NCBI GenBank assembly: GCA_008508345.1
Contig: QNGE01003668.1
Location: 10,757-74,756, forward strand
Length of the DNA: 64,000 bases
Source of the DNA: Paragonimus westermani
Lineage: Eukaryota > Platyhelminthes > Trematoda > Plagiorchiida > Troglotrematidae
Reading direction: 5' to 3'
Below are positions 3,031 to 30,142 of this stretch, in pieces (position 1 is the first letter of the stretch; each line of letters starts with the position of its first letter). The notes beneath the pieces are model-generated. The model did not search any database. It worked only from the letters and a program-made list of their open reading frames with translations, and was not told the DNA's origin. The position numbers were made by a program, and so were the translations under genes.

Positions 3031-3433
3031 CTTAGATTGAATCTTTGACTCAACAGTCTGACCAGCGGAACGAAAGGAAATGGTTTTATTGTGGCATCCC
3101 ACCCGGAGCCTCTCGTTAAAAACTTTGATTCACTTGGCAGTGAGGGACTAATCCAGACCGCGGCGCAACAAATAAGACGGTGACGACCCATTCCGACTAT
3201 TTCTGCGCACAATAGATCGGTTGCAAGCCGTATCAAGCTTTTGAAGATTTATGTGTGCTTTTCGACCGTACAGAATATTACGCTGACGGTCACGGTCGAC
3301 CATTGAGCGGTCGGAGTGTTCTGTGTTCGAAGTTACATTTTTTCCAACCTCGTCATTCTGCACGTGGAAAATCGCAGTGCTGCAAATATAAATATTAGTT
3401 CTGCTGTGCACTCAGATTCTTGCCTCACTATAT

Positions 3434-24600: not shown

Positions 24601-24706
24601 ATCACGCTCCCTGAATTTATCTACTCCCTTTCTGTTGACCATTCTTCCTCTTACACTCGAAACCTTCTTGGCAGCAGTTGAGAGCCTTCCTTACAAACAC
24701 TGATAC
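24601..24706. other. Short spacer
   Basis: This is unassigned sequence between the GIY-YIG relic and the miniature LTR-type element. Its last four bases, ATAC (24703-24706), are repeated directly after 25355. Confidence 0.4.
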
Positions 24707-25355
24707 TGTAACAGGCATACCGGGCTTTTTGGCTTCGTGTACCCGTTACAGTAGTAAACCCAGTTGGAGATACTGGGGGACAGCGTTCCTCAGAAATAGG
24801 GGTTCCAACGGTAGTCCTCTAAAAGAGGATAACGGAAACAAGCGTAAGTCAAAGGCCCAGTAAGACGTGCACACGACTTACAAAAACGAAAACAAGAATG
24901 GCGTCGACGGCACGTTGCATTACAATGCACCCCCTCAGATGAACTTTGTCCCCAGTATTTCGAGGCCTACGTGAACCGGCCAGTGCCAGTGGTGTCACAG
25001 AACATTGGGTGTGTGCGTAGAGGTTGCGTTGTGTGTGTTTGTGTACGTACACTCTATGTGTGATTGCAACGTGCGGACCCAGGGATGCCTGATCAAACCA
25101 AACTGTAATAACCGGGAGTTCTTAATGGTTGAAGCATCAGTTGGTCACGTCAACACAAGCTGGCAAAAACCATCCTGACAGGAGCGTGAAAATGTAACAG
25201 GCAAGCCGGACGTTCTGGCTTTGTGTACCCGTTACCCCACAATAGTCCTCTAAAAAGATATAACGGAAACAAGCGTGAGCTAAAAGACCCAGTAAGACAG
25301 CACACGACTTACACAAACGAGAACCAGAATGGTGTCGACGGCACGCTGCGTTACA
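24707..25355. mobile_element. Miniature LTR-type (TRIM-like) element, 649 bp
   Basis: Two direct repeats, 24707-24924 (218 bp) and 25193-25355 (163 bp), begin TGTAACAGGC and end with TTACA. They share most of their sequence, including GTGTACCCGTTAC, TAGTCCTCTAAAA, AACGGAAACAAGCGT and GTCGACGGCACG. The shorter one lacks about 75 bp in the middle. TG...CA ends with short inverted tips are the mark of LTRs. The pair is flanked by ATAC on both sides (24703-24706 and 25356-25359), as a 4-bp target duplication would be. The 268 bp between them has no coding capacity and no obvious primer-binding site. A third, solo copy lies at 55854-56139. Two independent solo insertions would be the alternative. 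Confidence 0.55.
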
Positions 25356-26013
25356 ATACAGCCATTTGAATTACGCACTCGACAAGCTGCTCAAGATGAA
25401 CATTAATTTCGATGTTACTAGGGCTTTATATATTTAGCCTTCCGAAATTTGTCCTCGTGCGTTTTATCCGTCCTCATGTAGAGACATTCTTGGTTTGCCA
25501 CGTATTTCAACTATTTTGCTGTTTATTTTGACCGTTGNCTGCTGAACCTTTGCATCTGCGTGCCTCAAATTTTCCTTATCACTCCGCTATTGAGTGACTT
25601 GTTATATTCGGTAGATTCACTATCAAAGTTTATCATTCTTCATTCAGGTTTCAATATACTTCTCACACCTTAGCACTTAATTAATAAGAAATATCCCTTT
25701 GCAGCTGTCCTCTCTGGGTCGAAATGGACTGTTGAGCGACTCGGGTTTTAAGGATGCTTGTCACGTCACAGGCGCGATTATTCAAGATTCAGTCCATCAA
25801 AAAATGCTGCGAGCAGACTGAGTATAGCTCAGAGAATCACTACACGTCCAGGACTAACTGCAACTGAACTAGTACATAATTCGAGAGACGGACTGATTGG
25901 ATGAGTGTGTATCACCAGAATAGATGGTCAGATCCTCACTGCTTAGGAGAATGCACAGTTCGAGGGCTGAATGGGTGCATTGCAGGGACGAGTTCAGTTT
26001 CAAGTAATCTTGT
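25356..26013. other. Spacer before the Penelope-like element
   Basis: No gene was seen. One undetermined base (N) lies at 25538. The last 16 bases (25998-26013) form the left half of the target-site duplication of the element that follows. Confidence 0.5.
25998..26013. repeat. Left target-site duplication of the Penelope-like element
   Basis: TTTCAAGTAATCTTGT here matches TTTCAAGTAATATTGT at 28829-28844 in 15 of 16 positions. The two copies border the element on either side. Confidence 0.65.
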
Positions 26014-26084
26014 AAGATATCCGCACCAAATTTAGTACGAATGAAGTTGAATAGTTTGGGCGTCGTGTTTAACATGTTAATGAT

Positions 26085-26243
26085 AAACAGATTGGGAATA
26101 ACACAACGTTACGAGCAAGTTGTAATACTCTACGTTTCAACCACCTCTGGTGGCCTTCCTCAGGAGTGTTGTAATCGAAATCACATTGACAGAGGAACAG
26201 AGGTCACATGGGATTTGCCGTGGTTAGGTCAGTTTGTGGTGCA
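26085..26243 (-). repeat. Left inverted arm (pseudo-LTR) of the Penelope-like element
   Basis: This 159-nt arm is the reverse complement of 28672-28830 with few mismatches. Its right edge (TTTGTGGTGCA) runs straight into the truncated RT copy, so the arm was joined to a 5'-truncated body. It contains a hammerhead-like core on the minus strand. Confidence 0.85.
26100..26170 (-). ncRNA. Hammerhead-ribozyme-like core, left arm
   Basis: On the minus strand the sequence has AACAC, TC, then CTGAGGA (fits CUGANGA, 26157-26163). A fully pairable stem II follows (GGCCACC / GGTGGTT, loop AGA), then GAAA, then an ACGT...ACGT stem III. A GTT cleavage-type triplet comes next, and GTGTT pairs back to AACAC. 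Two bases (TC) between stem I and the core are unpaired, which is unusual. Hammerhead motifs are known in the terminal repeats of Penelope-like elements; activity here is inferred. Confidence 0.5.
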
Positions 26244-26716
26244 ACGACAACAGTCAGCCGTCTAGAACCTTACCAGTGCAGAGCAGAATGCTCTTGGTCT
26301 CATCAAGTAGGATCGGTCGGTTCACATCACTAAGGCCGATAAAGGCAACATCACAGTGATTCTTAATCAAGAAGATTATCAAAAAAAGTGTTAGAGCGCT
26401 CAACCACTGAACCATATGAATAGATCAATGAGCAAATGACCAAGGCACTTCTGAATAAGGTCACAGCACAGACTAGTAAGTTTCTCCGAGGCACCAAAGA
26501 ACAACTTGGGTAGTCTACCTGGTTCATGCTCAATCCTAAACGTAACCGTCCTTCGCGTTCCTACGGCCTTCCAAAAGTACGGAAAACACGAATAGTCATA
26601 AGACCTACACCACCAATCCAACATACAAGCTGGTCGAGTTCATCAGCCGCATAATCAGACCGTTGCAAAACAAGTTGGTAAGCAACGTTGAAGACTCTTT
26701 TGATTTTGTTGACAAA
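26241..26716 (+). pseudogene. Truncated, decayed duplicate of the Penelope-like RT N-terminal region
   Basis: This 476-bp segment is homologous to 26843-27330 in direct orientation: GCAACGACAACAG, ATGCTCTTGGTCTCATCAAG and TCACATCACTAAGGCCGATA recur in order. It has acquired in-frame stops (for example AAGTAG near 26309), frameshifts and a 12-bp deletion near 26607. It ends abruptly at GTTGACAAACTCGA, where the upstream part of the main copy begins. Such head-to-tail partial copies are common in Penelope-like elements. Confidence 0.8.
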
Positions 26717-28585
26717 CTCGAACAATTTAACATCCAACGGAAGCAACTTGAGCCAATAGATATAATTCCCAAAATTGAACCTGCTCTAGGCAAACTAGCC
26801 ACAGATGTTACGGAGGAAGCATAATTTAGAATTGCAAGCGTTTTGCAACGACAACAGCCAGATGTCTCGAACCTTACCAACGCAGAACAGAATGCTCTTG
26901 GTCTCATCAAGAAGGATCGGTCGATTCACATCACTAAGGCCGATAAAGGCAACATCACAGTGATTATTAATCAAGAAGATTACCAAAAGAAAGTGTTAGA
27001 GCACTTAGCTGCTGGACCATATGAAGAGATCAATGAGCAAAAGGCCAACGCACTTCTGAATAAAGTCAAGGCACACGCCAGCAAGTTCCTCCGAGGTATC
27101 AAAGAAAAACTTGGACAGTCTACAGGGTTCATGCTCAATCCCAAGAGCAACCGTCCTTCACGTTTCTACGGCCTTCCAAAGGTGCATAAAACAGAAATAC
27201 CCATAAGACCTATTGTTGACTACACCACCAGTCCAACTTACAAATTGACCAAGTTCATCAGCCGCATAATCATACCGTTGCAGAACAAGTTGGTAACCAA
27301 CGTTAAAGACTCCCTTGATTTTGTTGACAAACGCGGACACAGGACATTAGATTGTGATAAAACTTTCCTTAGTTTTGATATGACTTCTCTTTACACCAGT
27401 GTACCGGTAAAGCATAGCATTGATGTTGTTAAAGAGTTATTGGAAAGTGACGATTTTCTTGGTGCACTTACTAATTTATCACCTTCCGAAATTTTATCCG
27501 GTCTCGAGCTTTGTCTGCACTCAACCTTGTTCACATTTAACGAAAAATTGTACAGGCAAACCGATGGTGTAGCTATGGGTTCCCCTGTTGCACCTGCAGT
27601 AGCCAACCTCTTCCTCGGATACCTGGAAACACAAGCGATGAGTGAATTTTTCTGCCCTCCGCGATTTTAATGGCGCTATGTAGATGACTCACTCGTAATC
27701 ATGACACAGACTGCTCGCGACTAATTCCTACAGTTTCTTAACTCAAAATACAACGGCATAGTCTTCACATTGGAAACTGAAACCGATGAACGCTCACTGA
27801 ATTTTCTAGACTACTTGGTCAAAGTTGACGAGCAACAGAGATTTCAGGTTTCAGTGTATCGCAAACCAACCCATTCTGGCCGTTATCTAAACTTCAACTC
27901 GTCCCATCCAATCGGTATGAAGAGAGCAGTCATCAAATCACTCGTCAACAGAGCCAATAAGATCTGCATTACTGAGCTCTCCAGAACAACAGAGATTTCT
28001 CAAATCAAAGAAATGCTAGCCACCGATCACTATCCGAACGCATTTATTGAGAACACAATTAAGCGCATGTCCACTAAGGAAGAGACCAAAAAGACCAGAA
28101 CTTTCAAGTCTACTGTGCAAATACCGTATCGTGAAAAAGCCCGCTCCATTCTGTCTGAGTACGCTATCCGGACCGTATTTCGGTCAGACAATACCTTAGA
28201 ACAACTGGTAACACATCGTAAGAATCCAATTTCTATGGGCGACCAGACAGACTGCGTTTACGAAATTAAATGCGGTGATTGCAATCCCAGCTACATTGGA
28301 GAGACAAGTAGACAACTGAAATTACGTGTTGCCGAACACAAGAGGCACACAAGGTTTCATCCTAAACACGCCTATCAATTTCAGAGGCTAGAGAAGGATT
28401 CGGCCATCGCACTACATGCACTGTCAGAGAATCACAACGTAGGTTTTGATCAAGCTCGAGTGATTCACAAGGGTCTAGCTTCCTATGCGGAATGGTGCTG
28501 TGCTGAAGCTCTCACCATTTACACACAGCACGCTTGTTTTAATCGCAATGATAGCAAACCCCTGTCTGCAGTGTGGCGTGAATGA
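26717..28585 (+). pseudogene. Penelope-like RT plus GIY-YIG endonuclease frame, broken by three in-frame stops
   Basis: A single frame runs through the whole interval, with stops only at 26822-26824, 27668-27670 and 27722-27724. The N-terminal part reads PIDIIPKIEPAL, then HITKADKGNITVI (about 26928-26966). RT motifs follow: FYGLPKVHK, PIRPIVDY, LTKFISRII, FDMTSLYTSVPV, and TDGVAMGSPVAPAVANLFL. The catalytic YVDD is at 27677-27688, followed by LNFLDYLV. The GIY-YIG nuclease follows: VYEIKCGDC (28256), YIGETSR (28292), EHKRH (28334), ALHALSENHNVGF and EWCCAEALTIY. All catalytic boxes are present, and the damage is limited to stop codons. The 26843 and 27770 starts suggested by open frames are artefacts of these stops; the true start is lost by 5' truncation. 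Confidence 0.9.
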
Positions 28586-28671
28586 ATAAACAGCACCAGA
28601 CACGGACGCGTCTTATCTACATCTGTCTCACCCCCACTTAGCAGGCAAAGGATTAGACCAATCCGGTCAGA

Positions 28672-28830
28672 TGCACCACAAATTGACCTAACCACGGCAA
28701 ATCCTATATGACCTCTGTTCTTCTGTCAATGTGATTTCGATTACAACACTCCTGAGGAAGGCCACCCGAGGTGATTGAAACGTAGAGTATTACAACTTGC
28801 TCGTAACGTTGTGTTATTCCCAATCTGTTT
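28672..28830 (+). repeat. Right arm (pseudo-LTR) of the Penelope-like element
   Basis: This arm is 159 nt, the inverted partner of 26085-26243. It follows the GIY-YIG stop by about 85 nt and overlaps the right target duplication (28829-28844) by two bases. It holds the plus-strand hammerhead-like core. Confidence 0.85.
28745..28815 (+). ncRNA. Hammerhead-ribozyme-like core, right arm
   Basis: AACAC (28745-28749) is followed by CTGAGGA (28752-28758). Stem II is GGCCACC/GGTGATT with one mismatch. GAAA (28777-28780) and ACGT (28780-28783) pair with ACGT at 28806-28809, supported by an inner GAG/CTC pairing. T28810 completes a GUU cleavage-type triplet, and GTGTT (28811-28815) pairs with AACAC. 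All invariant core positions fit the type I hammerhead pattern. The orientation is the same as the RT frame. Cleavage is not shown by sequence alone. Confidence 0.5.
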
Positions 28831-30142
28831 TCAAGTAATATTGTTGGTCAACTGGTTACCCTCGAGTCGAATTTGCATAAATGTGTTTTTTTCTGCAGTT
28901 TGCAACTTGGTTTTTTCTTCTTACGTTGGATGCACACGAACTTTTCAAAGTAACGATTATCTACCAGCGTTTTTCCGATCAGCCGTTCTTCTTCCTCCAG
29001 TCAGTCTGTAGTGCACTTTTCCGTGCATATCACAGTCCATAAGCTAAGTTGTCAGCTCGTGGGAGAAATGTCGTTCCCAATCCGGGAGAACCCCAGTGTT
29101 GCTCTCCTTGCATGTTCAGTGGCTGGAGGAATTGACCGGTGAGAGCAGAAAACTCTGGCGCTCAACGAACTAAAAGCAAACACAGTGAGCAAACTGTAGG
29201 ATCTCCGAATTTTAGCAAGAGAACTTACTCAGGGGATGGTGGATTTGTAGACTAGAAAGACACGGGAAATCGTAGCAGCCACGGCCACACATGCGGAGGG
29301 CTCGGTCAATGACACGAGCTGTTCCCAGTGGGCGAGGCGAGTGGCATTAAAATAAACTTGGCGATTGCTCTTCTTCGGGAAGGACAATCTGGCAGTAGGT
29401 GTTATGGTTAAGACGATGGTCCAGGATAAGGTGAACACCAGTGGCAGATGAGAAGACGGTTTGATTAACACTGGGACAGTAGTCCCATTGATTGAGCCAA
29501 AGTCAGGAAGTTCGTCTATCTACACACACTGATCGTTCTATTAGTGGTGGATTCACTCGTGTGACCTTGTGACGCAGTTCCATTCCTGATGTGGATAGGG
29601 TTATCTCCTTGTGTTGAGGTTTAGCGACAGCAAACCTCGTCATTGGCACCAAACGGGACGGACCGCTTGAACACCAGTCTGAATACGAAATCTGCCATCA
29701 AATCGGATTTTACAGTTGATGTAATCCAGGTTTGTTCCAGTTGGCGACCTTTTTAAGGCCACCTACGCACTCTGTCTCTTAGATGTCGATTTCAGCCCGG
29801 CCTTTTAAATCGCGTTGTCCATTAAATCCCATCGATATCCGTTTTATGGCTTAACTCTGTTCTATTCGAAAAACTGATCACAATTGATGTAGCAAACTTG
29901 TATTTTAATGACATGAACAGACGTTCATTTTTATTCATCCAACCGCCAACCTCATTTTGTCACCGAGTCGTTTACGCAGCGATCTAGGGTTACCTTGCAA
30001 CACCTACTGTTGAAAATCTAGGGACAATGTGGCATCTTTCTCTATGAATCATCTTTTGTTCTACGCGGGGTCTTCAACGAATTTTGAAAAGTCAAACCTA
30101 GGGAGCAAAACTCTGTTCCAACTCACAGTGCTTCAAACTCAC

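Follow-up and report, generated by a model that had tools for sequence, protein, structure and literature searches.

Introduction

The window analysed here, a stretch of 64,000 nucleotides from contig QNGE01003668.1 of the trematode Paragonimus westermani (contig C3668 of the 823-Mb assembly), contains a Penelope-like element (PLE) whose two terminal arms, inverted copies of a pseudo-long terminal repeat (pseudo-LTR), raise the question of whether they carry a ribozyme of the hammerhead type and where the corresponding RNA would be cut. An earlier note, made from the letters alone, had placed a hammerhead-like core in each arm, with two inserted bases between stem I and the core and a cut after position 28810. 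The motif is real and occurs at the place where it had been seen. To judge from the sequence, both arms probably hold the minimal type I hammerhead motif of PLEs, with cleavage most likely after GAAACGUA, and the cut site formerly proposed is probably about 26 bases too far downstream. The analysis adds to the list of minimal hammerheads an animal genome in which PLE-type motifs number several thousand and fall into at least two stem II families; the motif is otherwise an expected feature of PLEs, and the locus is a clear-cut example of two competing predictions for a cut site.

The Hammerhead Motif of the Two Arms

All the strings listed in the earlier note are found in the arms. On the forward strand, the right arm contains AACAC (28745-28749), TC (28750-28751), CTGAGGA (28752-28758), GAAA (28777-28780), a second ACGT (28806-28809), T (28810) and GTGTT (28811-28815), while C3 of the left arm corresponds to position 26163 on the reverse strand. 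These coordinates bear out the opposite direction of the arms, with one motif per strand, and the perfect stem II claimed for the left arm is indeed made of 7/7 pairs. Stem II of the right arm consists of 6/7 pairs, C28762.A28774 being unpaired. Among 87 aligned genomic copies of the arm, described in the next section, position 28774 is occupied by G in 84 and by A in two, one of which is the window's arm, and all seven pairs occur in 64.

A pairing overlooked in the earlier note associates GAGT (28785-28788) with ACTC (28748-28751). It directly abuts the core, comprises 4/4 pairs in both arms of the window without any insertion and is kept in 67 of the 87 copies, with no support from covariation. 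When stem I is read in this way and the cut is placed after 28784, the TC that had been taken for a possible lineage-specific insertion vanishes as such. In this preferred reading, the right motif would extend from 28748 to 28788 (+), with stem I formed by the two strands just given, CTGAGGA as above, stem II at 28759-28776 with its single C.A mismatch, and GAAACGTA at 28777-28784. The left motif, with its perfect stem II, would extend from 26127 to 26167 (-), with CTGAGGA at 26163-26157, GAAACGTA at 26138-26131 and the cut after 26131. The end of GAAACGTA is numbered A15.1, C15.2, G16.2, U16.1 and A17, followed by GAGT, and helix III would be restricted to the palindrome ACGU. The core CUGANGA...GAAA is accompanied by the A15.1-U16.1 pair and by H17; with stem II and a stem I next to the core, the sequence features of a minimal PLE hammerhead appear to be present, except that helix III is ambiguous.

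Abundance of the Motif and Sampling of Its Copies

The core, stem II and the GAAACGTH box occur together at a high copy number in the genome, far above the expectation from chance. A search for CTGANGA together with GAAACGTH, requiring four or more pairs in stem II and tolerating one mismatch, gave two matches in a set of 100 first-order Markov sequences, each 64 kb long (about 0.02 per 64 kb), compared with two occurrences in the window, which are mutual copies. Genome-wide, CTGANGAN{4,22}GAAACGTH occurs 7777 times (3848 + 3929), versus 416 times (211 + 205) for the reversed pattern, a 19-fold enrichment. Among 28 motif places inspected at the level of the letters, 16 belong to the window's family, nine to a second family and three to others, and both families are found as head-to-head pairs.

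Genomic copies were collected by protein rather than by motif, from 137 matches to the C-terminal coding piece of the element across its own genome. The resulting sample of 100 PLE loci comprises 30 initial loci, including the window's own, and 60 plus 10 stretches whose match extends as far as the C-terminus; a dozen or so further matches of this last kind lie outside the sample. A whole or partial arm occurs at the 3' end of 97 of the 100 loci, the others being L111, L129 and L132, the last of which is interrupted by a contig end. Ten of the 97 arms were set aside when columns were counted, because of their large gaps or low identity (L073, L098, L108, L116, L118, L119, L124, L126, L127 and L135), leaving 87 arms aligned by column, among them the window's right arm (L039). 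The full core is kept in 54 of the 87; in 35 it is accompanied by stem II and ACTC/GAGT, and likewise in 35 by stem II and both stems of the earlier note. Paired changes were counted over 67 distinct rows; stem II shows 44 single changes, 20 of which are still paired, and two double changes, one of them paired (L134, in which the core is broken).

The search was extended to viral contigs with CTGANGAAGN{5,18}GAAACGTH, which matched at least 120 stretches; among the matches listed, an uninterrupted stem II never exceeds 4 bp, and they were rejected as chance occurrences. A stricter pattern retained two coding-like stretches devoid of stem II, which were also discarded. At the protein level, no relative was confirmed in viral contigs among the 8 + 5 stretches recovered by peptide patterns. 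The search in genome contigs yielded 13 stretches, with one short match in a bacterial metagenome-assembled genome (MAG; L139). Sequence searches of solved structures returned nothing relevant.

Position in the Element and Proposed Mechanism

Within the pseudo-LTR, the motif follows the stop codon of one open reading frame (ORF) and precedes the probable ATG of the following one. Contig C6133 (L045) offers a direct tandem in which a stop codon is followed by the arm with its motif, then by an ATG and an in-frame ORF; the preferred cut would lie 55 bases upstream of this ATG, at which the PLE ORF would start. Read-through RNA of such a tandem would be cleaved within the pseudo-LTR, the most likely cut following GAAACGUA (28784, or 26131 on the other strand, in window coordinates), with a stem I ACUC/GAGU touching the core. 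Helix III could result from the pairing of the palindrome ACGU with that of a second hammerhead, in a dimer, or be helped by the protein of the element. Cleavage would split the tandem transcripts into units, each starting shortly before its ORF. In the window's copy, a single transcript would carry one ribozyme together with its complement, and arm-to-arm pairing is likely. Little or no cleavage activity is therefore expected from this particular copy, because its arms would pair, its right stem II is damaged and its ORF is broken.

Comparison with Known Hammerheads

Hammerheads of PLEs have reportedly been published by Cervera & De la Pena in 2014 and by Lunse, Weinberg & Breaker in 2017. 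Reviews describe them as type I motifs of minimal size, devoid of helix III (PMC6155905, PMC7761336), which in tandem may cleave via dimers (PMC7761336), and another review states that eukaryotic hammerheads need to be arranged in tandem and to possess a palindromic stem III in order to dimerize (PMC6466107). The window motif shares with the published minimal forms its location in the pseudo-LTR, the CTGANGA core and stem II, a palindromic ACGU compatible with dimer formation and, in the preferred reading, a reduced or absent helix III. It differs from them by a G at N7 (CUGAGGA), so that the ATG contained in CUGAUGA is lost and the probable ORF start lies beyond the preferred cut, at the distance given above, and by a link of 26 bases with a second ACGT, which permits an alternative helix III.

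In PAc, the Poseidon element of Anolis carolinensis, a PLE hammerhead described as made of stems I and II only is located at the junction of pseudo-LTR and ORF, as in the window, but cleavage in vitro is reported to occur only with the element protein (PMC11167929). In HHmeta, a hammerhead from a saltern, two bases are inserted before C3, at the same place as in the fold of the earlier note, and cleavage is reported as nearly complete once they are removed (PMC3088659). HHmeta is presented as a high-salt variant impaired in standard conditions, whereas the preferred reading of the window motif contains no insertion (PMC3088659 for HHmeta).

Two Geometries, Two Cut Sites and Other Rival Readings

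The cut after 28784 is preferred because GAAACGTA|GAGT needs no insertion and matches the published minimal PLE form. A series of results weighs against it. With the core kept unpaired, the fold of the earlier note is the better one in both arms, at -18.5 versus -16.1 kcal/mol in the left and -13.7 versus -9.1 kcal/mol in the right, an advantage of 2.4-4.6 kcal/mol in computed energies that take no account of dimers, of protein or of how the core folds in three dimensions. In the unconstrained ensemble of the left arm, the preferred stem I reaches a probability of at most 0.002, compared with 0.61-0.83 for the stem I and III pairs of the earlier note, while the ensemble of the right arm populates neither geometry (stem II 0.03; stem I of the earlier note 0.02-0.03, its stem III about 0.1). 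No Rfam hammerhead reaches the gathering score in the window (RF00163 Hammerhead_1, 0 hits), and evalue mode gives no hammerhead hit in either arm, so that the motif is not recognized in the model search that the earlier note had proposed as a check. Similarly, L042, L047 and L135, which carry a window-type arm, show no Rfam match at E 0.5. This failure is weak evidence, since a helix III of 4 bp is built into the Rfam model. Among the copies, ACTC/GAGT shows 30 single changes, seven of which are still paired, and no double change, while paired double changes do occur in the extended helix III of the alternative fold (L075 and L128). The divergence per site is 0.042 in the core and 0.054 in the rest of the arm (permutation p = 0.28), so there is no sign in the alignment that individual copies are constrained in the core. 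In a second PLE-like family of the genome, treated below, the corresponding stem I GCA/TGC pairs at 3/3 positions in one of the three copies inspected. Finally, the authors of the PAc study report that no RNA-seq read has its end at the site of cleavage (PMC11167929).

The geometry of the earlier note is a live rival, although it appears unlikely on balance. It would consist of a monomeric hammerhead at 28745-28815 (+), with stem I AACAC/GTGTT, the TC insertion before C3, a real helix III and a GUU cut after 28810. Stem III associates ACGT 28780-28783 with ACGT 28806-28809 and is extended by GAGTA 28785-28789 pairing with TGCTC 28798-28802; in silico it is the more stable of the two, helix III being reduced to its conserved nucleotides in the preferred reading. 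Besides the fold energies and the left-arm probabilities, two features of the copies speak for it. In the extension, which shows 39 single changes (12 still paired), two of four double changes remain paired, G-C at 28785/28802 being replaced by A-T in L075 and by T-A in L128. In addition, a short form devoid of the 26-base link, GAAACGTTGTGTTATT, in which AACAC/GTGTT with TC would serve as stem I, occurs at 17 places with at most one mismatch, of which L135 was fully inspected; the long form of the arm corresponds to GAAACGTAGAG. The short forms are possibly mere deletions: in another arm, L073, a portion of the link is gone between short direct repeats. The GAAA of L075 is broken, and position 17 of L128 would, in the preferred reading, be a G, a base after which no hammerhead cleavage is expected. 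Neither stem of this geometry covaries further, with 24 single changes (eight still paired) and no double change in AACAC/GTGTT, and 22 single changes (five still paired) and one unpaired double change in ACGT/ACGT. This geometry depends on the two bases inserted before C3; the natural insertion of this kind that was tested, G2a and C2b of HHmeta, allows very little cleavage in standard conditions (PMC3088659), and the published PLE forms do not possess such a helix III (PMC6155905, PMC7761336). The compensatory changes that the earlier note had named as a test are absent from either stem I and amount to one pair in stem II and two in the helix III extension. They lean slightly towards the helix III of the earlier note, but three cells in 67 rows are not decisive, and covariation is nearly uninformative because the family is too young and its copies too alike. 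The two geometries could also coexist around one core, as a trans dimer devoid of helix III cut after 28784 and a cis form cut after 28810, in which the 26-base link would become a 9-bp helix III with a two-base TC bulge. Such a double use seems improbable; if true, the link would act as a switch, specific to the lineage, by which cleavage could be dimeric or monomeric.

A different kind of reservation applies to both geometries, namely that the motif may be a fossil, inherited from an active PLE and nonfunctional in this element and perhaps in the whole family, its conservation reflecting recent copying. The core is no better conserved than its flanks, the right stem II of the window is damaged, the PLE ORF is broken by stops, and cleavage by the PAc ribozyme is described as dispensable for insertion in vitro (PMC11167929). 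Dead copies would nevertheless be expected to decay neutrally even if the source copies used the ribozyme, and the full core persists in 54 of the 87 arms, 35 of them with stem II and ACTC/GAGT; we regard the fossil explanation as a tentative one, rather unlikely. By comparison, it is highly improbable that the motif is a chance resemblance in a repeat with another role, such as a promoter or a priming site in the pseudo-LTR. The missing Rfam match is in its favour, against the chance rate of the pattern, the genome enrichment with two different stem II sequences, and the PLE context of nearly all sampled loci (97/100).

As a separate observation on the link, the position of 28804 is occupied by A in 33 of the 87 arms, a subset (L045/L053) whose link terminates with another GAAACGTT, as observed in L045, with the result that two GAAACGTH boxes occur downstream of a single CTGAGGA.

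Anatomy of the Penelope-Like Element

The element of the window, delimited approximately at 26014-28828 (+) from its arms and internal repeats, is a dead, 5'-truncated copy with a partial tandem and inverted terminal pseudo-LTRs. It is flanked by a probable target-site duplication at 25998-26013 and 28829-28844, whose copies are identical at 15/16 positions; the final 2-3 bases of the left copy may belong to the tail instead. The right arm (28672-28830, +), a pseudo-LTR located 3' of the ORF and recognized by repeat comparison and family copies, shares 153 of 159 bases with the left arm (26085-26243, -). The left arm, an inverted pseudo-LTR, runs into a tail (26012-26084, -) which contains the probable ORF start MLNTTPKLFNFIRTKFGADIL (ATG 26075-26073) and ends in ...GGATATCTTAC; the corresponding stretch is in frame with the ORF in the direct tandem of contig C6133. 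Beyond ...GGATATCTTAC, most of the 55 distinct tail sequences, the window's included, continue by eye into unlike sequence, with the exception of L045, L111 and L126, which continue as PLE sequence, and of L016 and L033, which break off sooner. Head-to-head arm pairs number seven among the 41 arm matches scored (40 of 1703 candidates scored).

The ORF is interrupted by stops and survives in pieces. A reverse-transcriptase (RT) coding piece at 26825-27667 (+; stop at 27668) has 57 homologues at E <= 0.001, among them proteins bearing RVT_1; 15 of 22 aligned members match RVT_1. The window's own piece matches RVT_1 at E 0.0019, which does not reach the Pfam cut-off. A telomerase-like RT coding region of a PLE thus appears to be present, the assignment of these RTs to PLEs being one that we presume from their combination with GIY-YIG and pseudo-LTRs and from the traits of the family. 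The C-terminal coding piece (27725-28582, +) contains a possible GIY-YIG region, whose match is weak (E 0.0044; 17.7 bits versus a Pfam cut-off of 22.6) and rightly placed within the ORF. A 5'-truncated extra ORF segment at 26240-26724 (+) recurs at 26844-27339, as seen from the repeat families D1-D3, and forms the partial tandem. Pseudo-LTRs, an inverted copy with its tail, a probable target-site duplication and partial tandems, all features of PLEs, are found together. Penelope elements of bdelloids are described with a similar organization, including an ORF with RT and GIY-YIG, the latter weakly matched in the window, pseudo-LTRs one of which is inverted head-to-head, a short target-site duplication, a partial tandem and a tail holding the first ~22 residues of the ORF, but the main text of that paper does not use the term hammerhead (PMC3846280).

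Two observations relate to PLE proteins elsewhere. A match to the C-terminal piece lies in an open frame of 1842 aa (G000:C304:171100-171675, -), possibly a fusion or a chance read-through. A protein named as belonging to a Lactococcus garvieae MAG (P0001) is 58% identical to the PLE RT and is encoded on a 2.4-kb contig, which is probably animal contamination within the MAG.

Other Hammerhead-Like Families of the Genome

The second PLE-like family, CTGATGATGTCACC...GGTGATGAAACGTT, is found at 3397 places within two mismatches, versus none for the control, and often occurs head-to-head, with ~50-100 bases from start to start (e.g., L263, G000:C2:235060-235240). Possessing the core, a stem II and GAAACGTT as in the window's family, it is a candidate for a PLE-like minimal hammerhead. 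The forward-strand copy of L263 has no ACGT within ~50 bases downstream of GAAACGTT, and therefore no helix III of the kind proposed in the earlier note. Its GCA/TGC pairing is complete (3/3), compared with 2/3 in the reverse-strand copy of L263 and 1/3 in L265, and the family does not settle the choice between the two geometries.

A separate and numerous kind of hammerhead, CTGACGAGCTCTAATGAGAGCGAAAC and its variants, accounts for many of the first 100 places listed, e.g., L003 1488-1532 (-) and L005 1488-1532 (-). It exhibits a palindromic helix III and, in L003, a stem I GCACTA/TAGTGC, and is perhaps a retrozyme- or SINE-like (short interspersed nuclear element-like) repeat. L003 and L005 score 33.9 and 23.1 bits, respectively, against Rfam Hammerhead_1 (gathering score 34), while L008 gives no match. 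These repeats and the Rfam model have the CTGANGA...GAAAC core in common with the PLE motif, but the model contains a 4-bp helix III and the PLE motif scores nothing. A repeated CTGATGACCTTTTTGAG..., inspected at a single place (L264), was rejected as a hammerhead for its lack of a clear stem II and for its GAAACATT.

The window also contains a short repeat (TAACAGGCA...GTGTACCCGTTAC...CCTCTAAAA...ATAACGGAAACAAGCGT) of which two copies, diverged from each other, were recognized by eye at 24690-24900 and 25185-25350.
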